Source of the DNA: Nocardioides sp. ChNu-153
GTDB taxonomy: Bacteria; Actinomycetota; Actinomycetes; Propionibacteriales; Nocardioidaceae
Assembly: GCF_030466625.1 (NCBI RefSeq)
Contig: NZ_JADEVT010000001.1
Span: 310,001 to 374,000, forward strand
Reading direction: 5' to 3'
Length of the DNA stretch: 64,000 nucleotides
Shown here: piece by piece, positions 14,533-59,568 of the stretch
Layout: each line of letters opens with the position of its first letter
Position numbering within the stretch: position 1 is the stretch's first letter
Notes under the pieces: model-generated
Database searches by the model: none
What the model saw: only the letters and a program-made list of their open reading frames with translations
Told to the model about the DNA's origin: nothing
Program-made: the position numbers and the translations under genes

Positions 14533-15893
14533 GCCCCAGCACCCCCCGCACCACCGCCGACCGTTGGCGCCGCCGCACCGCGGCGGCGACGGCGACCGTC
14601 CTGACCTGCGCGCTCGCCACGGCCTGCGGCGCCGGCCAGGACCGCGACGACGCCGAGTCCCCGGCCGACCGCGTCGGCGTCACCGACGACACCATCAAGG
14701 TGGGCGGCCACTTCCCGCTGACCGGCGTCGCGGCGCCCGGCTACAGCGAGATCCCGAGCGGCCACCAGGCGTTCTACGACTTCGTCAACGCCGAGGGCGG
14801 CGTGGGCGGTCGCGAGATCGAGTTCGTGGCCAAGGACGACGCCTACAACCCGACGAACACGACCCAGGTGACGAACGAGCTCGTGCTCTCCGACGAGATC
14901 TTCGGCATGGTCGGCGGGCTGGGCACGCCCACGCACGGCGCGGCGATCGACTTCCTCAACGACGAGGGCGTGCCGGACCTGTTCGTGTCCTCGGGCTCGC
15001 GGCAGTGGGGCGAGACGCCGGAGGAGTACCCGATGACCTTCGGCTGGCAGCCCGACTACGTGATCGAGGGCAAGGTCATGGGCCAGTGGATCGCGGAGAA
15101 CATGCCGGACGCGCGGGTCGGCCTGCTGCTGCAGGACGACGACCTGGGCGCCGACGGCGAGGCGGGCGTGCGGGAGTTCATCGACGACCAGATCGTCGAG
15201 GTCGTCTCCTACACGCCGAGCAACACCGACATCGCGCCCCAGCTGGCGCAGCTGCAGGCCGCGGACGTCGACCTGGTCATCGGCTTCAGCGTGCCGTCGT
15301 TCACGGCGCTGTCGCAGCTGGTCGCGCTGCGCCTCGGCTTCGACCCGCAGTGGATGTACACCAACGTGGGCTCCGACCCCTCGCTCGTCGGCTCGCTGCT
15401 CGCCACGTTCTCCGAGGGTGCCGTCGCCGACGGCGCCAGCCTGCTCGACGGGGTCATCACGACCGAGTACATCCCGGGCGTCGACGCCCCCGAGGACCCG
15501 TGGGTCCAGCTGTGGCAGCGGGTCTGGGACGAGTACGGCGAGGAGGGCGAGCCGCTCACCAACTACCGCATCTACGGCATGTCGCAGGCCTACACCCTCG
15601 TCCAGGCCCTCCAGGCCGCCGGTGACGACCTGACCCGTGAGGGCGTCGTCGCGGCGATCGAGGAGGCCGGCGGCGACTTCGAGGGCCCGGGCCTGGCGCC
15701 CTTCCGCTACTCGGCCGACAGCCACCTGGGCCTGTCCGGCATGCGCGTCGTGCAGCTCGAGGGCGGTGTCGGCCAGCCGCTGACGCCGGTGCTGACGAGC
15801 GACCTCGGCGACGCGGAGGTCACCGAGGACGAGTCCGCGGCGGGCGACGCCCCGCCGGAGAGCGGCATCCCCGACGTGGAGCCGGTGGGCTGA
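14529..15893 (+). CDS. livK: Branched-chain-amino-acid-type ABC transporter substrate-binding lipoprotein (LivK)
   Basis: 454 residues. Signal sequence with Arg-rich start, hydrophobic core (AAATATVLTCALATAC) and lipobox cysteine at Cys33, so it is predicted to be a lipoprotein on the outer membrane face. The mature part is a type I periplasmic-binding fold (IKVGGHFPLTGVAAPG near the start, NTDIAPQLAQLQAADVDLVIG in the middle). The acidic tail EDESAAGDAPPESG is poorly conserved. It delivers substrate to LivHM. Large members of this family often bind aromatic or aliphatic acids; the ligand is not known here. Confidence 0.92.
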   Translation: MSPSTPRTTADRWRRRTAAATATVLTCALATACGAGQDRDDAESPADRVGVTDDTIKVGGHFPLTGVAAPGYSEIPSGHQAFYDFVNAEGGVGGREIEFVAKDDAYNPTNTTQVTNELVLSDEIFGMVGGLGTPTHGAAIDFLNDEGVPDLFVSSGSRQWGETPEEYPMTFGWQPDYVIEGKVMGQWIAENMPDARVGLLLQDDDLGADGEAGVREFIDDQIVEVVSYTPSNTDIAPQLAQLQAADVDLVIGFSVPSFTALSQLVALRLGFDPQWMYTNVGSDPSLVGSLLATFSEGAVADGASLLDGVITTEYIPGVDAPEDPWVQLWQRVWDEYGEEGEPLTNYRIYGMSQAYTLVQALQAAGDDLTREGVVAAIEEAGGDFEGPGLAPFRYSADSHLGLSGMRVVQLEGGVGQPLTPVLTSDLGDAEVTEDESAAGDAPPESGIPDVEPVG

Positions 15894-46774: not shown

Positions 46775-49768
46775 CTACGGCACGACGATCACGCGGCGCA
46801 CCGGGCTGGCGGGGCTGTTGCCGGCGATGTTCGTCGAGTAGACCCAGAACTCGTAGGTCCCCGGCGCCAGGCCGCGGTAGGTCAGGTGGCGCTGGGTGGG
46901 CGGCACGGACCAGAACTTGTCGCCGCGCTGCACGACGTACCCCGTGATCGCGCCGCCGTTGGCGGCCGGCAGCGCCCACGAGACGGTGACGTCGCGGCCC
47001 TTCAGCGCGACCGCGGGTGTCCCGACGGAGCTGGGGGGCGCGACGGTGACGGCCTGGGTGCGCACCTCGCTGGGCACGGAGGCCCCGACCGCGTTGGTCG
47101 CGGTGACGGTGAAGGCGTAGGTGCCGCGCGGCAGGTCGCGGAAGGTGATGCGGTCGGTGCCCGCCGGCACGGCCCAGGCGCGGCCGTCGCGGTGCACGAC
47201 GTACCCGGTCACGGGCTCGCCGTTCGCGTCGGGCGGCAGCCACGCGACGACGACGTCGTCGCCGGTGGCACGGGAGTACGGCGTGGCGACCTGCGCCGGC
47301 GGACCGGCGGGCACGACCCCGGCGGAGACCTCCGACGGCTCGCTGTCGCCGATGCGGTTGGTGGCGGCGACGCGGAAGGTCCAGGTGGTGCCGTTCGTCA
47401 GGCCGGGGACCTCGACGCTGGTGGCGTCGGCCGGCGCCGAGGCGCGCACCTCGGCGCCGCCGTCGGCGGGGGTGGCGACGACGACGTAGCCCGTCAGCGG
47501 CTCGCCGCCGTCGTCGGCAGGCGCGGTCCACGTGACGGTGGCCGAGCGGTCGCCGCGCAGGGCGGTGACGCCGCTCGGTGCGTCCGGCACTGTCGAGACG
47601 CAGCGGTAGTCGCGGTCGTTGACCTCCACGACGGAGGAGCCGGGGCGGGCGGGCAGGCAGGCGTCGCCGTCGAGCTCGACGGTCTGGCCCGACGGCAGGA
47701 AGCGGAGCACGGCGCCGTCGGCCGGGCGGGCGTACGTCGCGGTGTAGCTGTCGTAGGCCATCCCGGTGACGCCCGTGAGCGGAGCGCAGCCGACGAGGTC
47801 GCACGACGAGAGCGGGATGAGCCCGCCGCCGGCGGCGCGGGCGACGCGGCCGGTGACGGTGCCGTCGAGCACGCGCACGAAGGTGCCGTCGGCCGGGACG
47901 GCGGCGACGTGGCCGCCCCACGGCTGGGCGGCGACGCCGCGGTGGGTGAGCGCGGCGCGGTCGATGCGCACGGCGCGCTGCGGGCCGCCGTACGGGGTCC
48001 AGCTCTCGACCGGGAACGCCGCGCCCCCGGCGAAGACGGAGACGCCGCCGGTGGGCACGACGACGAAGGTGCCGTCGGCGGGGGTGGCGCGCAGGTGGGC
48101 GTGGTTGCGGTCGGCGCGCGCCGCGTCGTCGACGACGGTGGCGGCGACGTCGACGGGCGCCTGGGCGGGGTCCTCGAGCGCGGCGGTGGTGGGCAGGTGC
48201 AGCGGGGCGCCGCCCGCGACGCGGTAGAGGCGGCCGTCGGTGACGGTGCGCAGGACGGTGCCGTCGGCGGGGTACGCCGCCATGCGGTCCCACTCGCCGC
48301 CCGTGCCGGCCCGGTCGATCGCGGCGTCGTCGACGGCGGTGGTGGGCTGGACCCCGCCGTACGGGGCCCACGAGTCGACCCACTGCGGCGAGCCGCCCGC
48401 GACGCGGAAGACGCCGCCGGTGGAGCGGCCGATGAGGAAGGTGCCGTCGACGGGGGTGCGGCGCAGGAAGGCGAACCCGCCCGTGCCGCCGGCGTTGTCG
48501 AGGGCCTCCTCGCCGACGAAGACCCGGGTCACGGCGCGGGTGCCGCCCCACGGGGCGAGCGAGGAGACGAAGAGCGGGGCGCCGCCGGCGACGACGTACG
48601 TGCGGCCGCTGCGGGCCGCGACGAGGAAGGTGCCGTCGACCGGCGCGGGCCGCAGGTGGTCGTAGACGTGGTCGGTGCCGATGCGGTCGATGGCGCGGTC
48701 GTCGACGTCGACGACCGGCCCGTCGGGGGCGATGTCGGGAACGTGCACGGGGGCGCCGCCGGCGATGCGGAACACGCGGCCCGAGGGCAGGCCGCGGATC
48801 CAGGTCTCGTCGACGGGGTAGCGGCGCAGCGTGCCCCACTGGGCCGCGTCGTAGGTCTCGCTGGGCTGGGTGCCACCGAAGGCCGCCCAGTTGGAGACGT
48901 GGATCGGGGCACCGCCGGCGATGCGGTAGACGTGGCCGCCGTAGCCCACGAAGTCGCCCTCGGCGACCGGGTCGGTGGCGACGTGCGCGAGCTCGGCGGC
49001 GTCGCAGCGGGCGTTGCTCGCGGTCGGCAGGGCCGTCGACATCATGGCGATCGGGGTGTCGGCGGGGAGCACGGCGTAGGTGTCGAACGCCGCCCAGCAG
49101 CCCTTCTGGAAGTCGGTGTGGGTGTGGATGCCGCTCTCGGTGCACACGCGCCACGACGACGAGTACGCCCAGCCGTCGGCGGTGCCGTCGCCGCAGCGGG
49201 AGTCGTCGCGCTTGCCGCTCGGCAGGAAGCCGATGGTGGTGCCGGGCGGGAACGCCGGCGTGCTCGTGCTGACCTGCACGTTCGCGAGGTGCCCGTAGCG
49301 GATCTGGCCGACCGCCGTGCCGCCGACCCGCACGTCGAGGGTGACCATCTGCCCGGCGCCGTTGTTGTTGGAGTCGACGCGCGCGACCTTGAGGCTCACG
49401 GGCCCGTCGAACGACTTCATCTGCGGCTTCACCGCGGCGCCCGGACCCTTGTGGAGGTCCCAGGAGAAGCCGCCGAGCAGGCGCGGGGTGTGGTCGGCGG
49501 GGCGGATGAGGCCCGTGCGGCCGCCGTCGTCGAACGGCATGTAGATGGCCACGCGCGTGCCGCCCGCGGCCGCGGACTGCTCGGCCCCGCCCTCGGGCTC
49601 GGGGTCCAGCGGGTTGCCGCCCGTGACGAGGGTCAGGGTGACGACGACGAGCGCCAGGCCCGCCAGGAGGGCGGCGGCGCGCCGGGTCGCGGTACGGCGG
49701 ACGCGGCCCGCGGGGCGGGTGCGCTCCGGTCCGCCCGGCGACACGGGCTCGTGGTCGTTGACTGGCAC
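46775..49768 (-). CDS. Large surface protein: membrane anchor, M23-like domain, GGAP repeats, three FN3 domains
   Basis: 997 residues from GTG 49768 (TACATT 8 nt upstream). An Arg-rich start precedes one hydrophobic segment at 31-50. Residues 75-265 include WDLHKG, RYGHLANVQVS (His160) and GIHTHTDF (His215, His217), faintly like M23 peptidases. About seven repeats of 58-60 residues follow (270-720), each with YRVAGGAPLHVxSW, a Gly-Gly turn and a PADGTFL end. The last 270 residues are three fibronectin type III domains (PLTGYVVVATP, PVTGYVVHRDG, AITGYVVQRGD). Probably anchored outside the cell and binding wall or carbohydrate; enzyme activity is unproven. Confidence 0.85.
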   Translation of the reverse strand: MPVNDHEPVSPGGPERTRPAGRVRRTATRRAAALLAGLALVVVTLTLVTGGNPLDPEPEGGAEQSAAAGGTRVAIYMPFDDGGRTGLIRPADHTPRLLGGFSWDLHKGPGAAVKPQMKSFDGPVSLKVARVDSNNNGAGQMVTLDVRVGGTAVGQIRYGHLANVQVSTSTPAFPPGTTIGFLPSGKRDDSRCGDGTADGWAYSSSWRVCTESGIHTHTDFQKGCWAAFDTYAVLPADTPIAMMSTALPTASNARCDAAELAHVATDPVAEGDFVGYGGHVYRIAGGAPIHVSNWAAFGGTQPSETYDAAQWGTLRRYPVDETWIRGLPSGRVFRIAGGAPVHVPDIAPDGPVVDVDDRAIDRIGTDHVYDHLRPAPVDGTFLVAARSGRTYVVAGGAPLFVSSLAPWGGTRAVTRVFVGEEALDNAGGTGGFAFLRRTPVDGTFLIGRSTGGVFRVAGGSPQWVDSWAPYGGVQPTTAVDDAAIDRAGTGGEWDRMAAYPADGTVLRTVTDGRLYRVAGGAPLHLPTTAALEDPAQAPVDVAATVVDDAARADRNHAHLRATPADGTFVVVPTGGVSVFAGGAAFPVESWTPYGGPQRAVRIDRAALTHRGVAAQPWGGHVAAVPADGTFVRVLDGTVTGRVARAAGGGLIPLSSCDLVGCAPLTGVTGMAYDSYTATYARPADGAVLRFLPSGQTVELDGDACLPARPGSSVVEVNDRDYRCVSTVPDAPSGVTALRGDRSATVTWTAPADDGGEPLTGYVVVATPADGGAEVRASAPADATSVEVPGLTNGTTWTFRVAATNRIGDSEPSEVSAGVVPAGPPAQVATPYSRATGDDVVVAWLPPDANGEPVTGYVVHRDGRAWAVPAGTDRITFRDLPRGTYAFTVTATNAVGASVPSEVRTQAVTVAPPSSVGTPAVALKGRDVTVSWALPAANGGAITGYVVQRGDKFWSVPPTQRHLTYRGLAPGTYEFWVYSTNIAGNSPASPVRRVIVVP

Positions 49769-49776
49769 AAGGCCGC

Positions 49777-49782
49777 AATGTA
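49777..49782 (-). promoter_or_regulatory. Candidate -10 box (TACATT) for the repeat protein
   Basis: TACATT on the minus strand ends 8 nt before GTG 49768. The sequence around it is AT-richer than the surroundings. Confidence 0.45.
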
Positions 49783-49863: not shown

Positions 49864-49875
49864 ATTGCATCCAAT
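49864..49875. promoter_or_regulatory. GntR operator candidate, ggt copy 1 (ATTGCATCCAAT)
   Basis: ATTG-CATC-CAAT has perfect 4-bp arms. The core TGCATCCAAT recurs upstream of the DHDPS-like gene and the permease gene. It lies 26 nt before the ggt start. Confidence 0.65.
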
Positions 49876-49883
49876 CACCGGTA

Positions 49884-49895
49884 TTTGCATACTGT
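49884..49895. promoter_or_regulatory. GntR operator candidate, ggt copy 2, overlapping the -10 box
   Basis: TTTG-CATA-CTGT begins exactly 20 bp after copy 1 and contains the probable ggt -10 box TACTGT (49890-49895), which ends 5 nt before GTG 49901. Only the left half matches the consensus well. Confidence 0.5.
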
Positions 49896-49900
49896 CGGCT

Positions 49901-51739
49901 GTGTCCTCCCCGCTGCCGGCCTCGGCCTTCACGTCGCCTCCTGCCCACCTGACGCGGCCCACGCTGGAGGGGGCCTACGGCATGAGCGCCTCCACGCACT
50001 GGTCCGCGACCGCTGCGGCGCAGTCGGTGCTCGAACGGGGTGGCAACGCGTTCGACGCAGCCGTGGCGGCCGCGTTCGTGCTGCACGCGGTCGAGCCGCA
50101 CCTCAACGGCCCGGGCGGCGACATGGTGGCGCTGGTCGCGCCCGCGGGCCGGGCGCCGACGGTGGTCGACGGTCAGGGCCCGGCGCCCGCGGGCGCCACG
50201 ATCGAGCGGATGCGGGCGGAGGGGCTCGAGGAGGTGCCCGGCAGCGGCGCCCTCGCGGCGGCCGTCCCGGGCGCGGTGCTCGCGCTGCTCCACGTGCTGC
50301 GCGACCACGGCACCTGGGACGTCGCCGACGTCCTGGCCTACGCCGTCGACCAGCTGGAGACCGGCCATGCGGCGGGACCCCAGCTGTGCGGTGTCGTGGC
50401 GGCGATGGCCGACCACTTCATCGAGCACTGGCCGACCTCCGCGGCGATCTGGCTGCGGGAGGGCCGTGCGCCCGCGGTGGGGCAGGTGGTGACCAACCCG
50501 GCGTACGCCGCCACCCTGCGGCGGCTGCTCCGGGCCGCGCCGGACGCGGCGACCCGGGAGGAGCGCATCGACGCGGTGGCGGGCGAGTGGCGCACCGGCT
50601 TCGTGGCCGCGGCAGTGGCGGCGGCCGTCCAGCGCCCCCACCGCCACTCCTCGGGCCGCGACCACCGGGGGCTCCTCACCGCCGAGGACCTCGCCGACGC
50701 CCGGGTCGCCACGGAGGAGCCGCTCGTCCTCGACTTCCGCGGCACCCGGGTCCACAAGGCGGGCTTCTGGACGCAGGGCCCGGTGCTGCTGCAGGCGCTC
50801 GCCATCCTCGACCACTTCCCGGACGACCACCTCGACCCGTCGACGGCGCTCGGCATCCACACGGTGGCCGAGGCCCTCAAGCTGGCGATGGCCGACCGCG
50901 ACACCTACTACGGCGACGCCGGCCCGGTGCACCCCGAGGGGGCCGGCGGCAGCTCGGACCCGCGACGGGCGCTGCTGTCCCGCGAGTACGCCGCCGCCCG
51001 GGCCGCGCAGATCGGCGCGACGGCCTCGTGCGAGCACCGGCCGGGCGACCTGCCGGGGCTGACGCCGTGGCGGGTGCCGCTCGTGCTGGAGGGCGGGGCG
51101 GCGGCCGGGGCCGGAACGGGGGAGCCGACGGTGGCGCGGGACGGCAGCACGCGGGGGGACACCTGCCACGTCGACGTCGTCGACCGGCACGGCAACCTGG
51201 CCTCGCTGACGCCGTCGGGCGGGTGGCTGCAGTCGTCGCCCGCCGTCCCGGAGCTGGGCTTCTGCCTCGGCACGCGCCTGCAGATGACCTGGCTCGACCC
51301 GGACAGCCCCTCGGCCCTGCGTCCCGGCCGCCGGCCGCGCACCACGTTGAGCCCGACCATGCTGAGCCGCGGGGGCCTCACCACCGCGGCGCTGGGCACG
51401 CCGGGCGGCGACCAGCAGGACCAGTGGCAGCTGCTGTACCTGCTGCGCACCCTGGTCGGGGGCTACACGCCCCAGCAGGCCGTCGACGCCCCGGCCTTCC
51501 ACACGACGGCGCTCGTGAGCTCGTTCTGGCCGCGGGAGCTGAGTGCCGCGGGGCTGGTCGTCGAGGACCGCGTCGGCCCCGAGGTCGTCGCCGAGCTCGA
51601 GCGCCGCGGGCACGACGTCACGGTCGCCGACGGCTGGAGCCTCGGGCGCCTCTCCGCGGTCGTCCGGGACCCCGCGACCGGCCGCCTCGGCGCGGCCGCG
51701 AACGCGCGGGGCGCCCAGGGCTACGCGGCGGGCCGGTGA
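49901..51739 (+). CDS. Gamma-glutamyltransferase-family Ntn hydrolase
   Basis: 612 residues from GTG 49901 (ATG 49981 is an alternative). The N-terminal domain has STHWSATAAAQSVLERGGNAFDAAVAAAF in outline, typical of the family. The autocatalytic Thr is Thr421 in GDTCHVDVVDRHGNLAS, and the later GGDQQDQWQLLYLL matches the GGxxI/Q segment. No signal peptide, so cytoplasmic, unlike secreted Ggt. It would hydrolyse a gamma-glutamyl compound or another amide. Two operator-like repeats overlap its promoter, and it overlaps the following DUF1275 gene by 4 nt. Confidence 0.85.
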   Translation: MSSPLPASAFTSPPAHLTRPTLEGAYGMSASTHWSATAAAQSVLERGGNAFDAAVAAAFVLHAVEPHLNGPGGDMVALVAPAGRAPTVVDGQGPAPAGATIERMRAEGLEEVPGSGALAAAVPGAVLALLHVLRDHGTWDVADVLAYAVDQLETGHAAGPQLCGVVAAMADHFIEHWPTSAAIWLREGRAPAVGQVVTNPAYAATLRRLLRAAPDAATREERIDAVAGEWRTGFVAAAVAAAVQRPHRHSSGRDHRGLLTAEDLADARVATEEPLVLDFRGTRVHKAGFWTQGPVLLQALAILDHFPDDHLDPSTALGIHTVAEALKLAMADRDTYYGDAGPVHPEGAGGSSDPRRALLSREYAAARAAQIGATASCEHRPGDLPGLTPWRVPLVLEGGAAAGAGTGEPTVARDGSTRGDTCHVDVVDRHGNLASLTPSGGWLQSSPAVPELGFCLGTRLQMTWLDPDSPSALRPGRRPRTTLSPTMLSRGGLTTAALGTPGGDQQDQWQLLYLLRTLVGGYTPQQAVDAPAFHTTALVSSFWPRELSAAGLVVEDRVGPEVVAELERRGHDVTVADGWSLGRLSAVVRDPATGRLGAAANARGAQGYAAGR

Positions 51740-52437
51740 GCGGGGTGAGCAGTGCGCGGGCCGGGGTCGCGCCCTCGACCGCGGTGGCCCTCATGCTGGT
51801 GCTGACGTTCTCCACGGGCGTCGCCGACGCGATCGGCTACCTGGCGCTGGACAAGGTCTTCACCGGCAACATGACGGGCAACGTCGTGATCCTCGGCATG
51901 GGCCTGGCCGGGGAGCAGGGCCTCCCGGTGGCCGGTCCGCTCGTCGCGCTCGGGGCGTTCATGGCGGGCGCCGCGACCGGTGGCCGCGCGCAGCGGGCGG
52001 TGCCCGCCGGGTGGCAGACCCGTACGGCGGTGCTCCTCGCGGTCGTGGGCACCACCTTCGCGGCCACGGCCGGCTACACGGCCGCCCGGCCCACGTCGTA
52101 CGGGCACGAGGAGGGCCTGGTCCTCGCGGGCGTCATCGCGTGGGCGATGGGGCTGCAGGCCGCCGTGGCCCGCCACGTCGCCGTCAAGGACGTCACCACC
52201 GTGGTCGTCACCTCGACCATCACGGGGCTGGCCGCCGACTCCCGGCTGGGGGCCGGCGGAGGGCAGCCCTGGGCCCGCCGGGCGCTGGCCGTCGTCGCGA
52301 TCGGGCTCGGTGCCCTCGTCGGGGCGCTCACGCTGCGGTGGCACCCCGGGGTCGGCATCGGCTTGTCGGCACTGCTGACGTACGGCGTCGCCCTCGCCGG
52401 GGGCCTGCAGCACCGTGCCCGCGCGCGACGGGAGTGA
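51736..52437 (+). CDS. YoaK/DUF1275-family membrane protein
   Basis: 233 residues from GTG 51736 (GTGA overlap). About six transmembrane segments; the family mark FSTGVADAIGYLALDKVFTGNMTGNVV is near the start and a second TxxxT segment (VTTVVVTSTITGLAADS) in the middle. DUF1275 proteins are thought to be transporters, but no substrate is known. Pairing with the gamma-glutamyltransferase suggests import of its substrate or export of its product. Convergent with the GntR gene, only 3 nt apart. Confidence 0.87.
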   Translation: MSGVSSARAGVAPSTAVALMLVLTFSTGVADAIGYLALDKVFTGNMTGNVVILGMGLAGEQGLPVAGPLVALGAFMAGAATGGRAQRAVPAGWQTRTAVLLAVVGTTFAATAGYTAARPTSYGHEEGLVLAGVIAWAMGLQAAVARHVAVKDVTTVVVTSTITGLAADSRLGAGGGQPWARRALAVVAIGLGALVGALTLRWHPGVGIGLSALLTYGVALAGGLQHRARARRE

Positions 52438-52440
52438 CGC

Positions 52441-53178
52441 TCAGCGGTCCCGGCTCTGGCCCTGGTTCTCCACCCACCGGGCGAGCGCCTCGGCGGAGGA
52501 GCGGACGTGACGGGTCATGGCGCGCCGGGCGCGCGCCGCGTCGCCGGCGTTGATCGCCTCGGCGATCTGGCGGTGCTCGGCGGAGTTCTGCCGCAGCAGC
52601 CGCGAGTTGCCGGCGTACGCCGCGAAGGCGGAGTTGCGGGGCAGGCGCCGGCTGATCTCGGCGATGGTGAGGCTCAGCTGGTGGCTCGCGGCCGCCTCGA
52701 GGATGACGCCGTGGAAGTCCTCGTTGGCCTCCGCCCACAGGCGGGCCGCCTCGGTGACGCCGGCCGGGTCGGCCTCGGGGTCGGCGGCCTGGTGGGCATC
52801 GACCGCCCGGTCGTAGCGGTCCCACGCGGAGTTGAGCCGCCGCAGCTGGTCGTCGTCGATGAGGCCCGCGGCGAGCTCGGCGGCCAGGCCCTCCAGCTCG
52901 CCCCGCACCGCGCCGAGCTCGCGGATGTCGCGCCCGCTGTGCCCGTTGACCCGGGCACCCCGGTTCGGCGTGATGGTCACGACGCCCTGGGCGTGCAGGA
53001 CGCGGAGCGCCTCGCGGACGGGAGTCCGGCTGACGCCGAACTCCTCGGCGACGGCCGCGTGGCGGATCCAGCTGCCGACGGGCACCTCGCCGGAGAGGAT
53101 CCGGCGCAGCAGCTCGTCGGCGAGCCACTCGCCGAGCGCGCCGTCCGTCTCGCGTCCGTTCTGCGTCTCGGCCACCAC
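52441..53178 (-). CDS. GntR-family regulator with FCD domain (FadR subfamily)
   Basis: 245 residues from GTG 53178, with AGGAGG 8 nt upstream. The winged helix shows LLRRILSGEVPVGSWIRHAAVAEEFGVSRTPVREALRVLHAQGVV in outline (residues 20-70). The C-terminal FCD domain has helices with the expected Asp and His residues (ANEDFHGVILEAA, EHRQIAEAINAGDAARARRAMTRHV) that usually hold a metal and an organic acid. It is divergent from the DHDPS-like gene. ATTG-CATC-CAAT repeats before three units are its probable operators. Confidence 0.9.
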   Translation of the reverse strand: MVAETQNGRETDGALGEWLADELLRRILSGEVPVGSWIRHAAVAEEFGVSRTPVREALRVLHAQGVVTITPNRGARVNGHSGRDIRELGAVRGELEGLAAELAAGLIDDDQLRRLNSAWDRYDRAVDAHQAADPEADPAGVTEAARLWAEANEDFHGVILEAAASHQLSLTIAEISRRLPRNSAFAAYAGNSRLLRQNSAEHRQIAEAINAGDAARARRAMTRHVRSSAEALARWVENQGQSRDR

Positions 53179-53265
53179 CGCTGGCACCTCCTGGGCGGGT
53201 CGCCCGGTCGCGGACGGGGCACCTCCCCGTCGCGGTGGGCCCGCCGCGCCGGACCCGGCCCCAGT

Positions 53266-53277
53266 TTTGCATCCAAT
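53266..53277. promoter_or_regulatory. GntR operator candidate between gntR and the DHDPS-like gene
   Basis: TTTG-CATC-CAAT shares TTGCATCCAATC with the ggt site. It lies in the 135-nt divergent region, 88 nt from the gntR start and 36 nt before the lyase start. No second copy occurs at 20 bp here. Confidence 0.65.
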
Positions 53278-53313
53278 CGATCCGTCGTGTCGACGACCTC
53301 CCGAGGAGACCCC

Positions 53314-54279
53314 GTGCCCGTGCTTCCCCCCGCTCACGATCCGTCGGGCGCGCCCGCTGCCGCCCCGTCCCGACCGCTCGGCTGCTGGGCCATGGTGCCC
53401 ACCCCGTTCTCGGCGGACGCCGCGGTCGTGGACCGGAGCTCCCTCGTGCGACTGGCGGGCGGCCTCCTCGACGACGGCTGCACCGGGCTCGTGGCCCTCG
53501 GCGCGATCGCGGAGCCCGCCACCCTCACCGCGGCCGAGCGCGACGCGGTCGTCCGGGACCTGGGCGCCGTGGCCCGCGCGCGGGGCGCCGGCCTGGTCGT
53601 GGGACTGGCGGGCACGCGGACCGACGACGCCGTCGCCGAGGTCCGGCGCTCCGCCGACCTGCGCCGGTCGGCGGACGCCCTGCTGGTCCCCGTGCCCGCG
53701 CCCGACGCGCGAAGCACGCGGCGGCACCTGCGGGCCGTCCACGATGCGTCGGGACTGCCGCTCGTCGTGCAGGACCTGCCCCGGGCCACGGGCGTGACGA
53801 TCGGGCTGGACGAGCTGCTGCGGGCGGTGGAGGGCCTCGACTTCGTCGCGGCCGTGAAGTGCGAGTCCCCGCCCACGTTCGTCGCCGTCGCCGCCCTCGT
53901 GCGGCACACCGACGTCGTGGCGATGTCGGGGATGGGCGGCACGGGCCTCGTCGCCGACCTGCACGCCGGGGCGCGGGCGGTTGCGCTCGGCGCGACGCCG
54001 ACGCGCGTGCTGGTCGCCGCCGTGGACGCGTGGCAGCGCGGCGATGTCGAGGAGAGCCTGCGGCTCGTCGGCTCGGTCGCGACCCGCTGCCACGTCGAGA
54101 CCCAGCCCGGCGCCTCGGTGGCGATCCGGAAGGAGCACTGGCGCCGGGAGGACCGGATCGCCTCGGCGTCCGTGCGGGCGCCGACGCCCCCGTGGCGCCC
54201 GGAGGAGGACGGCCTCGACGGCCTCTCCGCGCTCCTGGGCCTGCCGGACGCCGTCGTACGGCCACCCGTCCCCGGGTGA
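53314..54279 (+). CDS. DHDPS/N-acetylneuraminate-lyase superfamily protein
   Basis: 321 residues from GTG 53314 (GAGGAG 5 nt upstream). A (beta/alpha)8 barrel with the Schiff-base Lys182 in VAAVKCESPP. In true DapA a Tyr precedes NxPxRTG; here the matching segment reads LVVQDLPRATGV, so Gln153 replaces Tyr and lysine biosynthesis is unlikely. The start GCWAMVPTPFSADAAVVD is family-typical. It is probably a pyruvate- or keto-acid-dependent lyase or aldolase of a catabolic route. First gene of the block controlled by the GntR protein. Confidence 0.85.
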   Translation: MPVLPPAHDPSGAPAAAPSRPLGCWAMVPTPFSADAAVVDRSSLVRLAGGLLDDGCTGLVALGAIAEPATLTAAERDAVVRDLGAVARARGAGLVVGLAGTRTDDAVAEVRRSADLRRSADALLVPVPAPDARSTRRHLRAVHDASGLPLVVQDLPRATGVTIGLDELLRAVEGLDFVAAVKCESPPTFVAVAALVRHTDVVAMSGMGGTGLVADLHAGARAVALGATPTRVLVAAVDAWQRGDVEESLRLVGSVATRCHVETQPGASVAIRKEHWRREDRIASASVRAPTPPWRPEEDGLDGLSALLGLPDAVVRPPVPG

Positions 54280-54333
54280 CGGGCAGGGGTCGATTCCGCG
54301 AACCCTCTTGCCAGGGGCGCCGATCTCTCGCAA

Positions 54334-54345
54334 ACTGCATCCAAT
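54334..54345. promoter_or_regulatory. GntR operator candidate, permease copy 1
   Basis: ACTG-CATC-CAAT shares TGCATCCAATC with the ggt and lyase sites. It lies 36 nt before the permease start. Confidence 0.62.
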
Positions 54346-54353
54346 CCGAGAGA

Positions 54354-54365
54354 GTCGCATCCATT
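54354..54365. promoter_or_regulatory. GntR operator candidate, permease copy 2
   Basis: GTCG-CATC-CATT repeats GCATCCA exactly 20 bp after copy 1, the same spacing as the two ggt sites. Confidence 0.55.
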
Positions 54366-54380
54366 CCAGAAGGTGGCACC

Positions 54381-55811
54381 GTGAGCTCAGCACTGCAGCC
54401 GGAACCCGTGGGCACCGCTCCGGCGAGCCTCAAGCGCAACACGATCGGCGCCTTCGGACTGACCTTCATGGTCGTGGCCGCGGCCGCCCCCCTGACGGCG
54501 ATGGCGTCGAACATCTCCCTCAGCCTCGCCTTCGGCGTCGGCGCCGGCACCGTCGGCCTGCTCGTCGTCGTGGCGGTCCTGCTGACCGTGTTCGCGACGG
54601 CGTACGTCGCGCTCAGCCGCCACGTCACCAACGCGGGGGCGTACTACGCGTTCATCGGCTTCGGGCTCGGTCGGGCCGTCGGCGCCGGAGCCGCGTTCGT
54701 CGCGACGGTCGCCTACAACATGGCGGCCGGCGGCATGATCGCCGCCACCGGCTACTTCGCCGACGTGACCGCCGTGTCCTACCTCGACGTCGACCTGCCC
54801 TGGTACCTCTACGGCGCGGTCGCGCTGGCGCTCACGGCGTACCTGGGCCGGCGGGGCGTCGACGTCGCGCAGCGGCTCACCACCGGTGTCTCGCTGCTGC
54901 AGTTCGCCGTCATCGTGGTGCTCGGCGTCGCCGTGCTCCTCGAGCGCCCCGGCTCGTGGGACCTGGGGGTGTTCACGCCCGGGCAGATGCTGGACGGCAA
55001 CATCGCGATGACGCTCGTCTTCTGCATCCTCTCCTTCGTCGGGTTCGAGGCCACGGCCATCTACGGCGAGGAGGCGAAGGCGGCCCGCCGCTCGATCCGG
55101 GTCGCCACCTACACCTCGATCGCGCTCCTCGTCGCCGTCTTCGTCTTCTCGACCTGGTCGATCGTCGCCGCCTACGACGACGTGCAGGCGGCCGCCGCGG
55201 CCGATCCGGGCTCCCTGGTCTTCCGCGCTGCCGACGCCTACCTCGGGTCGTGGTCCGGGGGCCTGCTCTCGGCGATGGTGACGATCAGCTTCCTCGCCGC
55301 CGGCGTCGCGTTCCACAACATGGCCGCGCGCTACCACTTCTCGCTCGGCCGCACGGGCCTGCTCCCGCGGGCCCTCGCGGCGACCCACCCGCGCTTCGGC
55401 ACGCCGCACCGCAGCAGCGCCCTGCAGATCGGCCTGTCCGTGCTGATGCTGGTGCCCTTCGCGGTCTCGGGGGCGGACCCGATCCTCAACCTCTTCCCGG
55501 CGGTCTCGGGCATCACGAGCATCTCGCTGACGTCGCTGATGATCGGCTGCTGCCTCAGCATCGTCGTCGCCGGACGCCGGGGCCTGCTGCCCGAGAGCCG
55601 GTGGGTGACGCTGGGCGCCCCGCTGGTCGCCGGCGCGGGCATGGTCGCCATCGTCGCCATCATCCTGGCCAACTACCAGGAGGTGACGGGCAGCTCGTCA
55701 CGCGTCATCGCCCTCATGCCGCTGCTGCCGCTGGCCGCCGGGCTGTACGGCGCGGTGGCCTACACGCTGCGCGCGCGGCGGGTCGGGGAGCTCGAGATCG
55801 ATGCATCCTGA
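54381..55811 (+). CDS. APC-family amino acid/polyamine permease
   Basis: 476 residues from GTG 54381 with AGAAGG upstream. Twelve transmembrane segments are expected; the first (GAFGLTFMVVAAAAPLTAMA) and the amphipathic helix 8 region (FVGFEATAIYGEEAKAARRSI) carry the APC substrate and Na-site marks. It should import an amino acid or amine. Its own doubled operator just upstream means it is controlled apart from, but in parallel with, the lyase gene. The next gene begins about 34 nt after its stop. Confidence 0.9.
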   Translation: MSSALQPEPVGTAPASLKRNTIGAFGLTFMVVAAAAPLTAMASNISLSLAFGVGAGTVGLLVVVAVLLTVFATAYVALSRHVTNAGAYYAFIGFGLGRAVGAGAAFVATVAYNMAAGGMIAATGYFADVTAVSYLDVDLPWYLYGAVALALTAYLGRRGVDVAQRLTTGVSLLQFAVIVVLGVAVLLERPGSWDLGVFTPGQMLDGNIAMTLVFCILSFVGFEATAIYGEEAKAARRSIRVATYTSIALLVAVFVFSTWSIVAAYDDVQAAAAADPGSLVFRAADAYLGSWSGGLLSAMVTISFLAAGVAFHNMAARYHFSLGRTGLLPRALAATHPRFGTPHRSSALQIGLSVLMLVPFAVSGADPILNLFPAVSGITSISLTSLMIGCCLSIVVAGRRGLLPESRWVTLGAPLVAGAGMVAIVAIILANYQEVTGSSSRVIALMPLLPLAAGLYGAVAYTLRARRVGELEIDAS

Positions 55812-55845
55812 GACGGCGCGTCCCGTCCACCCCCAGGAGGCCCCC

Positions 55846-56784
55846 GTGCACCCCGACGACCTGATGCCCCACCTCGACCTCGACGCACTGGTCGACCCCC
55901 ACCTCGTGGCGCCGCCCCCGGTCGAGGTGCTGCCCGGTGCGCGCAGCCACCTGCACCTGCGCTACGCGGTCGTGCAGGGCTGGCGCCCGCTGCAGCTCGA
56001 CCTGCACCTGCCCGCCGTACCGGGGGAGGAGGGTCGGCCCTGGCCCGTGGTCGTCCACGTCCACGGCGGCTCCTTCCTCGCCGGCGTGCCGGCGATGGGG
56101 CCCTGGGTGACCCTGCCGGCCCGGGGGGTCGCGGTGGCGTCGGTGTCCTACCGCCTGGCGGGCGAGGCACCCTTCCCCGCCGCCGTCGAGGACGTGCGCG
56201 CCGCCGTCGCCTGGGTGGCCGACAACGCGGACCGGTTCGGCCTCGACCCCGGGCGCGTGGCGTTGTGGGGGTCCTCGGCCGGCGGCTACCTGGCCGCGCT
56301 CGTCGGGATCACCGGCGCCGACCCGGTGGGGCGCCCGGTCGGTGGCCTGTCGCGCCCGGACCCGTCCCCCTGGCCGCGCGTCGCTGCCGTGGTGGCGCAA
56401 CACCCCGTCACCGACCCCGCTGCGCTGCGGGCGGACGCCGAGCACACGACGCCCGACGAGGTCGACGCGCTCGAGGCGGTCATGGCCCGCTTCTTCGACC
56501 AGACGTCGCCCGCGCCGACGGCGCTGGAGGCGCACCTGGCCCGGCGGCGCGAGGCGGGCCACGACGTGCCGCCGTTCCTGGTGGCGCACGGCGACGCCGA
56601 CCGCCGCGTCGGGCTCGGCCAGTCGCGCCGGCTGATCGACGCGCTGCACGCGCACGGCGTGCCCGCCGAGCTGGTGGTCGTGCCCGGCGCCGACCACGGG
56701 GCCCCCGAGTTCTCCGCCGAGCCGCTCGTCGCCCGGGTGCTCGATTTCCTCACCTCCCGGTGGGACCGCGGGGGAGCGCCCTGA
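55846..56784 (+). CDS. Alpha/beta hydrolase (carboxylesterase/formamidase-like)
   Basis: 312 residues from GTG 55846, which has AGGAGG 5 nt upstream; ATG 55801 in frame would overlap the permease and lacks a ribosome site. Oxyanion motif HVHGGSFLAG at 71-80, nucleophile Ser144 in WGSSAGGY, late Asp in AHGDADRRVG and His in GADHGAPEF. This is the HGG/GxSxG esterase group related to hormone-sensitive lipase and kynurenine formamidase. It would cleave an ester or amide of the imported compound. Confidence 0.87.
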   Translation: MHPDDLMPHLDLDALVDPHLVAPPPVEVLPGARSHLHLRYAVVQGWRPLQLDLHLPAVPGEEGRPWPVVVHVHGGSFLAGVPAMGPWVTLPARGVAVASVSYRLAGEAPFPAAVEDVRAAVAWVADNADRFGLDPGRVALWGSSAGGYLAALVGITGADPVGRPVGGLSRPDPSPWPRVAAVVAQHPVTDPAALRADAEHTTPDEVDALEAVMARFFDQTSPAPTALEAHLARRREAGHDVPPFLVAHGDADRRVGLGQSRRLIDALHAHGVPAELVVVPGADHGAPEFSAEPLVARVLDFLTSRWDRGGAP

Positions 56785-56846: not shown

Positions 56847-57959
56847 ATGGACGTCCTCATCTCCGGCGCCAGCATCGCCGGCCTCACCACGGCTCACTGG
56901 CTCGCCCGCCACGGCCACCACGTCACGGTCGTCGAGCGCTCCGACGGCCTGCGCAGCGGCGGCGTCTCGATCGACGTGCGCGAGGAGGCGGTCGAGGTCG
57001 CCCGCGCGATGGGCATCTGGGAGGACGTGCGGCGCCTGCGCGTGCCGCACGACGACGTCTACCGCTTCGTCGACGAGTCGGGCGCCACGCAGGCCGAGCT
57101 CCGGCCCGCCGCGGACGTCTACGACAACACCGAGGACGTCGAGATCTCCCGCGACGTCCTCGCCGACCTGCTGCGGGCGGCGGTGCCCGACGACGTGGAC
57201 TTCCGCTTCGACACGTGGATCACCGCGATCACCACCGCGCCCGACGGAGGGCGCGCGGTGACGCTCGACGACGGCAGCGTCCTCGTCGTCGACCTCGTGG
57301 TCGGCGCCGACGGCATGCACTCGGCGGTGCGCGAGCTCGTCTTCGGTCCCGAGCGGCAGTTCGTGCACCACCTCGGCCTCTACGTCTCCATCGCCAAGCG
57401 CTGCCGCTCGGTGGGCGTCGCGACCGGCTCCGAGGTGCTCAACACCCCGGGACGCATGGTGATGCTCCGCAGCGACGGCACCTCGACGTCGGCGCTGCTG
57501 GGCTTCCGTTCGGAGTGGCTCGAGCACGACTTCCGCGACGTCGCGGCCCAGCGGGAGATCGTGCGCCGCGCGTTCGCCGGGATGGAGGGCTGGGTCGCGC
57601 CCGAGGCCGTGGCCGAGGTCGTCGGCGCCGAGGACTTCTACTTCGACTCCGTCAGCCAGATCCGCATGCCGTCGTGGACCGGCGAGCGCACCGCGCTCGT
57701 CGGCGACGCGGGCTACTGCGCCTCGTTCTTCTCCGGCATGGGTACGACGCTCGCGATGGTCGGCGCCCGCGCCCTGGCCGAGGCGCTCGAGGAGGCACCC
57801 GGCGTGCCCGCCGCACTGCGCGCGTACGACCAGCGCATGCGCCCGATCGTCGAGCGCGCGCAGGCGATCGCCGACCAGGGTGCGGCCCTGCTGTTCCCCA
57901 CCACGCGTGAGGCCATCGAGGAGCGCAACGCCGCGCTCCGCGCCGCCGCGCCCGCCTGA
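56847..57959 (+). CDS. FAD-dependent monooxygenase (class A flavoprotein hydroxylase)
   Basis: 370 residues, ATG 56847 with AAGGAAG upstream. FAD dinucleotide motif GASIAG at 7-12, the DG-type motif LVVGADGMHSAVRE, and GDAGYCASFFSGMGTTLAMVGA near 285-305. It uses NAD(P)H and oxygen to hydroxylate or oxidise an organic substrate and is most like the enzymes acting on aromatic or polyketide rings. In this block it probably modifies the substrate handled by the hydrolase and dehydrogenase. Confidence 0.88.
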   Translation: MDVLISGASIAGLTTAHWLARHGHHVTVVERSDGLRSGGVSIDVREEAVEVARAMGIWEDVRRLRVPHDDVYRFVDESGATQAELRPAADVYDNTEDVEISRDVLADLLRAAVPDDVDFRFDTWITAITTAPDGGRAVTLDDGSVLVVDLVVGADGMHSAVRELVFGPERQFVHHLGLYVSIAKRCRSVGVATGSEVLNTPGRMVMLRSDGTSTSALLGFRSEWLEHDFRDVAAQREIVRRAFAGMEGWVAPEAVAEVVGAEDFYFDSVSQIRMPSWTGERTALVGDAGYCASFFSGMGTTLAMVGARALAEALEEAPGVPAALRAYDQRMRPIVERAQAIADQGAALLFPTTREAIEERNAALRAAAPA

Positions 57960-58036: not shown

Positions 58037-59155
58037 ATGCCCCCGACCGCCACCGCGACCCCGTTGCCCGCCACCGGCGAGCACCTGCCGGACCCGTTCG
58101 GGTCCGAGCAGCTCATCACCTGTGCCGACCCGGCCACCGGCCTGCGCGCCGTGATCGCCGTCGACAGCACCGCGCTGGGGCCGGGGCTCGGTGGTGTGCG
58201 GATGCGGGCCTACCCGTCCTTCTGGGACGGAGCGTTCGAGGCGCAGCGCCTCGCCCGGGCCATGACGTGGAAGAACGCCCTGGCCGGCCTGCCGTACGGC
58301 GGGGCCAAGTCGGTGATCATCGACGACGGTGACCGGAGCCGGCGTACCGAGCGGCTCGTGCGGTTCGGCGAGCTGGTGGCCCGCCTGGGCGGCGCCTACC
58401 TGCCGGGGGTCGACATGGGCACCACCACCGCCGACCTGGCGCTGATGGCGTCGGTGGGTGCGCCGTCGACCTGCGCGAGCGACGACCCCTCGCCGTGGAC
58501 GGCGCTGGGCGTCTTCCACGCCGTCTGCGCCGCGGCCGAGCACCGGCTCGGCTCGGACGGGGTCACCGGGGTGGACGTCGTCGTGCAGGGCGTGGGCAAC
58601 GTCGGGGCCGCCCTCGCGCGCCTCCTCGCCGAGGCCGGTGCCCGGGTGACCGTCACCGACATCGACGCCGATCGTGCGGCGCGTGTCGCCCGCGAGGTCG
58701 ACGGCCGGGCCATCCCGGTCGACCGGGCGCTGAGCGAGCCGACCGACGTCCTCGCGCCCTGCGCCGCGGCCCGGGTCGTCACCCGCGCGGCGATCCCGCA
58801 CCTGGGCTGCCGCATCGTCGCCGGCGGCGCGAACGACACCCTCGAGGACGACGGGTGCGCCGACGAGCTCGAGGCCGCCGGGATCCTCTACGTGCCCGAC
58901 TTCGTGGCCAACGCGGGCGGCGTGGTCCACATCCACTCCCTCACCGCGGGCTGGGACGACGACCGGCTGCACGGGGCGCTCGCCGGCATCGGGGCGCGGG
59001 TCACGAGCATCCTCGACGACGCCCGGGCCGCCGGCACGACCCCGCTCGCGGCCGCGCACGCGCAGGCGCGTGCCATCGTCACGGACGCCCGCACCCGCCC
59101 CGCGGACCACGACGACCACGACGACCACCACCACCGGAGGAGCAGCGACCGATGA
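58037..59155 (+). CDS. Leu/Val/Phe-type amino acid dehydrogenase with His/Asp-rich tail
   Basis: 372 residues, ATG with GAGAGGA upstream. The N-terminal domain has GLGGVRMR, WKNALAGLPYGGAKSVI with catalytic lysines Lys79 and Lys91; the Rossmann segment is VVVQGVGNVGAALARLLAEAGA. It would oxidatively deaminate a neutral L-amino acid to a 2-keto acid with NAD. The C-terminus carries a run of Asp and His (DHDDHDDHHH), not part of the family, perhaps metal-binding. Overlaps the cupin gene by 4 nt. Confidence 0.87.
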   Translation: MPPTATATPLPATGEHLPDPFGSEQLITCADPATGLRAVIAVDSTALGPGLGGVRMRAYPSFWDGAFEAQRLARAMTWKNALAGLPYGGAKSVIIDDGDRSRRTERLVRFGELVARLGGAYLPGVDMGTTTADLALMASVGAPSTCASDDPSPWTALGVFHAVCAAAEHRLGSDGVTGVDVVVQGVGNVGAALARLLAEAGARVTVTDIDADRAARVAREVDGRAIPVDRALSEPTDVLAPCAAARVVTRAAIPHLGCRIVAGGANDTLEDDGCADELEAAGILYVPDFVANAGGVVHIHSLTAGWDDDRLHGALAGIGARVTSILDDARAAGTTPLAAAHAQARAIVTDARTRPADHDDHDDHHHRRSSDR

Positions 59156-59568
59156 GCGAGACCACCAAGAAGCCCGCGCCCGGCCAGACCGAGGGCGCCG
59201 ACGTCGGCCCGACCTTCGACCCGGCCGACTACGCCGACGAGCTGCGCGACGTGCGCGAGAACCGCGCGATCGGCACCCGGGTGTGGTTCGAGAACGACCG
59301 CGTCCAGGTCTGGGACCTGTCGCTGCAGCCCGGCGAGCGGCTGCCCTTCCACTGCCACGACCAGGACTACTTCTGGACCGTGACGGACCCCGGACGCGTG
59401 CTGCAGCGCTACGACGACGGCACGAGCCGCGTCGTCGACGTCGAGGTCGGCCACACCAACTTCCTGACCTACGCCGGCGACCAGTGCACGGTGCACGACC
59501 TGGAGAACGTGGGCGACACGTTCGTGCGGTGCGTGACCGTCGTGCTCAAGGACCCCGCCGGCTCCTGA
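59152..59568 (+). CDS. Small cupin-domain protein
   Basis: 138 residues from ATG 59152 (ATGA overlap). A single cupin fold: the first motif reads LQPGERLPFHCHDQDYFWTV with metal-ligand His residues, the second includes GDQCTVHDLENVGD. It could be a metal-dependent dioxygenase or isomerase, or bind a small effector. As last gene of the GntR-associated block it probably helps process the product of the monooxygenase or dehydrogenase. A hairpin overlapping the stop ends the unit. Confidence 0.83.
   Translation: MSETTKKPAPGQTEGADVGPTFDPADYADELRDVRENRAIGTRVWFENDRVQVWDLSLQPGERLPFHCHDQDYFWTVTDPGRVLQRYDDGTSRVVDVEVGHTNFLTYAGDQCTVHDLENVGDTFVRCVTVVLKDPAGS

Follow-up and report, generated by a model that had tools for sequence, protein, structure and literature searches.

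Three promoters in a gene cluster of Nocardioides sp. ChNu-153 share a short motif. The cluster lies in the window, the 64,000-nucleotide stretch of DNA that we analysed, and includes a gntR regulator gene (Table 1). Judged by sequence comparison, the sites are very probably operators of an autoregulated GntR repressor. They would overlap core promoter elements and be freed in response to a metabolite. The first-pass annotation had tied three separate units and gntR into one GntR circuit. The rarity of the motif, together with its co-occurrence with gntR in six of six genomes, supports this claim.

Exact copies of the 11-mer TGCATCCAATC occur at positions 49866–49876, 53268–53278 and 54336–54346, all on the + strand. 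Hence, the earlier placement of the motif at 49866, 53268 and 54336, each in a promoter region, was confirmed for both sequence and position. When the window was scanned with up to one mismatch to TGCATCCAATC, nothing was detected beyond these three sites (shuffle mean 0.21). The search was then widened to the whole 3.75-Mb genome (29 contigs), using mismatch searches. Here, TGCATCCAAT was found in three places only, all at the cluster, and the reversed control pattern gave 0 matches. One mismatch to the 11-mer added just one place. A motif common genome-wide would argue against a regulon; with three exact copies in 3.75 Mb, the regulon reading stands. As expected for an autoregulated local regulon, the motif precedes gntR and its neighbours and is rare elsewhere in the genome.

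A genome-wide search that tolerated as many as two mismatches to ATTGCATCCAAT yielded 10 matches, including the three sites, compared to 5 and 2 in the control. Near-matches outside the cluster are at background level. The best of these, ATTGCAACCAAT on contig C16, was rejected; it sits in a GGTTGCA repeat array and looks like a site for another regulator. The array (L031:1520–1575) is located between genes for a response regulator and an MFS transporter, and is probably the operator of another regulator. A near-match within a serine-recombinase gene, and one on contig C10 with no open reading frame of at least 120 aa nearby, were unconvincing as regulon members. Finally, a match in another genome of the same family (G120) lies at the beginning of a reading frame that is not related to the cluster, and was taken as chance.

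Table 1. Candidate operators, predicted promoter and genes of the gntR cluster (positions in the window).
Feature	Position	Strand	Description
GGT: gamma-glutamyltransferase-like Ntn-hydrolase gene	49901–51739	+	Pfam PF01019; GTG start
Operator A	49864–49875	+	ATTGCATCCAAT; before GGT gene; overlaps predicted -35 TTGCAT
Second copy A2	49884–49895	+	TTTGCATACTGT; 20 bp downstream of A; doubles as predicted -10 CATACT
DUF1275 membrane protein gene	51736–52437	+	Pfam PF06912; overlaps GGT end
gntR regulator gene	52441–53178	-	245 aa; PF00392 (E 2e-15), PF07729 (E 9e-23)
Operator B	53266–53277	+	TTTGCATCCAAT; between gntR and dapA-like gene
DapA-family lyase/aldolase gene	53314–54279	+	Pfam PF00701
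Predicted permease promoter	54308–54336	+	TTGCCA-17-CAAACT; operator C overlaps end of its -10
Operator C	54334–54345	+	ACTGCATCCAAT; at predicted transcription start of permease operon
Second copy C2	54354–54365	+	GTCGCATCCATT; 20 bp downstream of C
Amino-acid (APC superfamily) permease gene	54381–55811	+	Pfam PF13520
Alpha/beta-hydrolase (esterase-like) gene	55801–56784	+	Pfam PF20434, PF07859; overlaps permease gene
FAD-dependent monooxygenase gene	56847–57959	+	Pfam PF01494; start is first in-frame ATG
Glu/Leu/Phe/Val dehydrogenase-family gene	58037–59155	+	Pfam PF02812, PF00208
Cupin-like protein gene	59152–59568	+	Last in permease operon; 91% identical in N. alkalitolerans

The GntR protein has an N-terminal GntR winged helix and a C-terminal FCD domain, which places it in the FadR (FCD) subfamily. 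Its relatives in the PDB are GntR-family regulators. The PDB relatives of the DapA-like protein are L-2-keto-3-deoxyarabonate dehydratase and DapA. With a score of 212, the GGT-like protein misses the NCBIfam equivalog cut-off (358), and inspection by eye found no obvious signal peptide. By far its nearest solved relative is 6j3a/6j3i. Actinobacterial GGT homologues include enzymes that cleave C-C bonds, such as LmbA (PMC5519988). Hence, the GGT-like protein need not use glutathione. The DUF1275 gene adjoins GGT in N. alkalitolerans as well. For the FAD-dependent monooxygenase, the closest PDB entries are tetracycline destructases (Tet(55), E 3e-58), and the score of 226 falls far short of the NCBIfam threshold for that group, 550. 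Upstream of operator A, and divergent from GGT, a long minus-strand gene (46775–49777) encodes repeated segments (e.g. VFRVAGGAP) and fibronectin-like repeats. No relative of this gene was found at the N. alkalitolerans locus.

High-GC actinobacterial promoters commonly escape strict sigma-70 consensus scans. Such a scan found nothing here, and promoters were predicted by simple hexamer matching. For GGT, this gave TTGCAT-17-CATACT, a hexamer pair also conserved in N. alkalitolerans. The GTG start codon is just 8 nt beyond the predicted -10; hence, the transcript is probably leaderless. On the gntR strand, a predicted -10 element, AAAACT, abuts operator B, and the string ATTGGATGCAAAACT is kept in N. 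alkalitolerans. The permease promoter of that species has the same layout as its counterpart in the window (TTGCCT-17-CAAACT).

Operator A pairs ATTGCA with ATTGGA and is an imperfect palindrome, symmetric at 10 of 12 positions. Its arms are fully symmetric, which is true of no other site; strict ATTG-N4-CAAT is found at A only, and the remaining two sites read TTTG...CAAT and ACTG...CAAT. Across species, TTGCATC(C/T) is better kept than the right arm, and the right half-site varies among CAAT, CTAT, CCAC and TAAT. In the alignments, the ATTG and CAAT arms are less well conserved than the core TTGCATCC; for this comparison, three rows of the site table that are 1–2 bases out of register (168B, 210B and 230B) were read by eye. 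The ATTG-N4-CAAT symmetry had been said to suit the FadR subfamily. This holds loosely, but the inner GT/AC pair of the canonical TKGT-N2/3-ACMA class is missing; the site reads TTGC-AT-CCAA, with GC/CC in its place. That pair is a usual, not a defining, feature of subfamily operators.

Weaker second copies had also been described 20 bp beyond the first and third sites. Both are present, as TGCATAC at 49886 and CGCATCCATTC at 54356, but the GGT copy coincides with the predicted -10 hexamer, whose spacing from the -35 is canonical. Hence, A2 is ambiguous and need not be an operator. Since it serves as a TTGCAT copy and a predicted -10 at once, the case for cooperative dimers is stronger for C with C2, and for a 21-bp pair in related species, than for A with A2. 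Operator B, at 53268, is single and has no second copy.

Close gntR orthologues (GntR E < 1e-60) occur in 5 of 215 other Nocardioides genomes, making 6 of 216 with our own. In N. alkalitolerans, which a scan of genome contigs identified as the only close relative, GntR is 89% identical; in four further species, identity is 52–54%. An order-wide search added one more homologue (41%). In all five orthologue genomes, the motif is again at matching promoters (GGT, gntR, dapA-like, permease or cupin). The N. alkalitolerans locus has the same nine genes. All three operators recur there at the orthologous promoters, and the spacing of exactly 20 bp is kept for both second copies. In this species, the operator B 12-mer is identical, A2 reads ATTGCATAC, and C2, CGCATCCAATC, matches better than the C2 in the window. 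The exact 11-mer is present in 6 of 6 genomes with an orthologue, always at the gntR locus, compared to 15 of 210 without one (Fisher p = 4e-7, only a guide, since the six genomes belong to one genus, share ancestry and are not fully independent).

The four more distant species carry GGT, gntR, hydrolase, cupin and DapA-like genes in a different order. Here, ATTGCATCCTAT precedes GGT and ATTGCATCCCA(C/T) precedes gntR. A face-to-face pair, ATTAGATGCAAT...ACTGCATCCAAT, occupies the region between divergent cupin and dapA-like genes, and its 21-bp spacing is kept in four of four genomes despite a changed linker. In these species, a cupin relative (34–37% identical) lies directly behind the operator. 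Judged by this arrangement, the cupin gene has changed position yet stayed under the motif. Beyond the close orthologues, TTG-N4-CAA elements also precede gntR at the loci of three homologues of about 39% identity. Counted from the aligned gene start, they lie 28, 60 and 154 bp upstream; the background in the compared loci is 0.06 per kb. All nine aligned proteins share an unchanged recognition helix segment, SRTPVREA. The locus of one 39% homologue (L027:10607 and 14737–14770) has TTGGATCCAA near gntR. A second element there, ATTGGATCCAAC, has ATCCAATGG about 22 bp away and looks very similar to the Caulobacter vanillate operator.

Could the motif be a shared promoter element, either a -35 or one read by an alternative sigma factor? 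At GGT it does read as a -35 with a -10 placed 17 bp on, and this arrangement is conserved in N. alkalitolerans. However, at the permease the motif is downstream of the conserved TTGCC-17-CAAACT, and at gntR it precedes the -10 on the opposite strand. Such variation in orientation, and in position relative to -10 and -35 elements, fits an operator and not a promoter element. Furthermore, the 11 common bases exceed a hexamer, and sigma elements would be widespread whereas the motif has no other copies in the genome. We consider a promoter element highly unlikely. Chance likeness, or recent duplication of a short sequence, is less credible still and close to negligible. Short motifs do recur, and 1 of 100 shuffles gave three near-matches, but the sequences flanking the three sites bear no relation to one another, and five other species keep the sites at the orthologous promoters.

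The sites might instead be operators for a different regulator encoded elsewhere, with gntR a mere neighbour. A regulator search gave 24 candidate places in the genome, and other GntR-type proteins are likely to be present. Even so, no regulator other than GntR belongs to the genes conserved across the six genomes, and each of the six has a site ahead of gntR. Distant GntR homologues also have this class of motif in front of their own genes. A different regulator is thus improbable. It is unlikely, though less so, that GntR is an activator or a dual regulator at some sites. FadR-subfamily proteins can activate from other positions and, upon hypR deletion, some promoters went up and one went down (PMC6608401). 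In the present case, the sites lie across or next to the predicted core promoter or start, which is a repressing position.

The preferred reading, an autoregulated repressor, would work as follows. The GntR/FCD protein would recognise the motif as its operator, with one dimer for each 12-mer. A second dimer may bind the same DNA face, two helical turns further on, at the permease promoter and perhaps also at GGT. Operator A would cover the GGT -35 and A2 the -10, while operator C would cover the start of the permease operon. Operator B, abutting the predicted gntR -10, could mediate autoregulation, and it also precedes the dapA-like gene. Operators that cover -35, -10 and start sites point to repression; the simplest consequence would be that RNA polymerase is blocked. 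A small-molecule effector in the FCD domain would relieve repression. This would probably be a carboxylate or an amino-acid-derived intermediate, and the most likely inducer is a compound that the encoded pathway takes up as its substrate or forms as an intermediate. In a bolder version, the asymmetric core TTGCATCC would be read by pairs of dimers spaced two helical turns apart, and the regulator would govern a catabolic route not described before (GGT-like Ntn-hydrolase, DapA-like lyase and cupin). This version is possible but on the whole doubtful. In sum, the local regulon is well supported, and it is of a familiar and ordinary type.

Grouped in this way, the GGT-like hydrolase, DapA-like lyase and cupin would belong to one pathway with a single probable inducer. 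In two species, the permease, esterase, flavin monooxygenase and amino-acid dehydrogenase would join this group. The pathway substrate thereby becomes approachable through the molecule that releases the repressor. For an actinobacterial FCD regulator, the sites also provide a well-supported predicted operator that departs from the usual GT/AC consensus.

Operators of the FadR subfamily were compiled by Suvorova et al. 2015, with an inner GT/AC as canonical, TKGT...ACMA (PMC4494728). Like the sites here, these are palindromes with T-K-G/C-M-A arms; variants with 2-nt spacing are listed, and extra boxes occur near sites. In contrast, the Nocardioides site has GC/CC for the canonical inner pair. 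The extra boxes of the compilation are half-sites 7–12 nt from the centre, whereas those described here are near-complete second sites at 20–21 bp. HypR of Streptomyces coelicolor, the repressor of hydroxyproline use, is likewise an actinobacterial FCD GntR protein (PMC6608401). It is an autorepressor with few catabolic targets and a site over the -10 region, and so resembles the proposed regulon. However, its motif, CTNTGC(A/C)ATGTCAC, and its target genes differ from those of the Nocardioides GntR.

Base for base, the site most resembles the vanillate operator of Caulobacter crescentus, ATTGGATCCAAT. The protein that binds this operator is VanR, a GntR/FCD repressor. When the operator sequences alone were compared, A matched at 11 of 12 bases and B and C at 10 of 12. 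The vanillate operator is a perfect palindrome, whereas the Nocardioides half-sites differ (ATTGCA/ATTGGA); the genes also differ, as presumably does the inducer. Nevertheless, both share a 12-bp ATTG-N4-CAAT layout with an A-T centre. The Caulobacter operator belongs to a vanillate-inducible promoter, and the promoter-containing fragment has two copies, ATTGGATCCAATC and ATTGGATCCA (PMC6538847). Copies are paired at the vanillate promoter and, with 20-bp spacing, at A and C.
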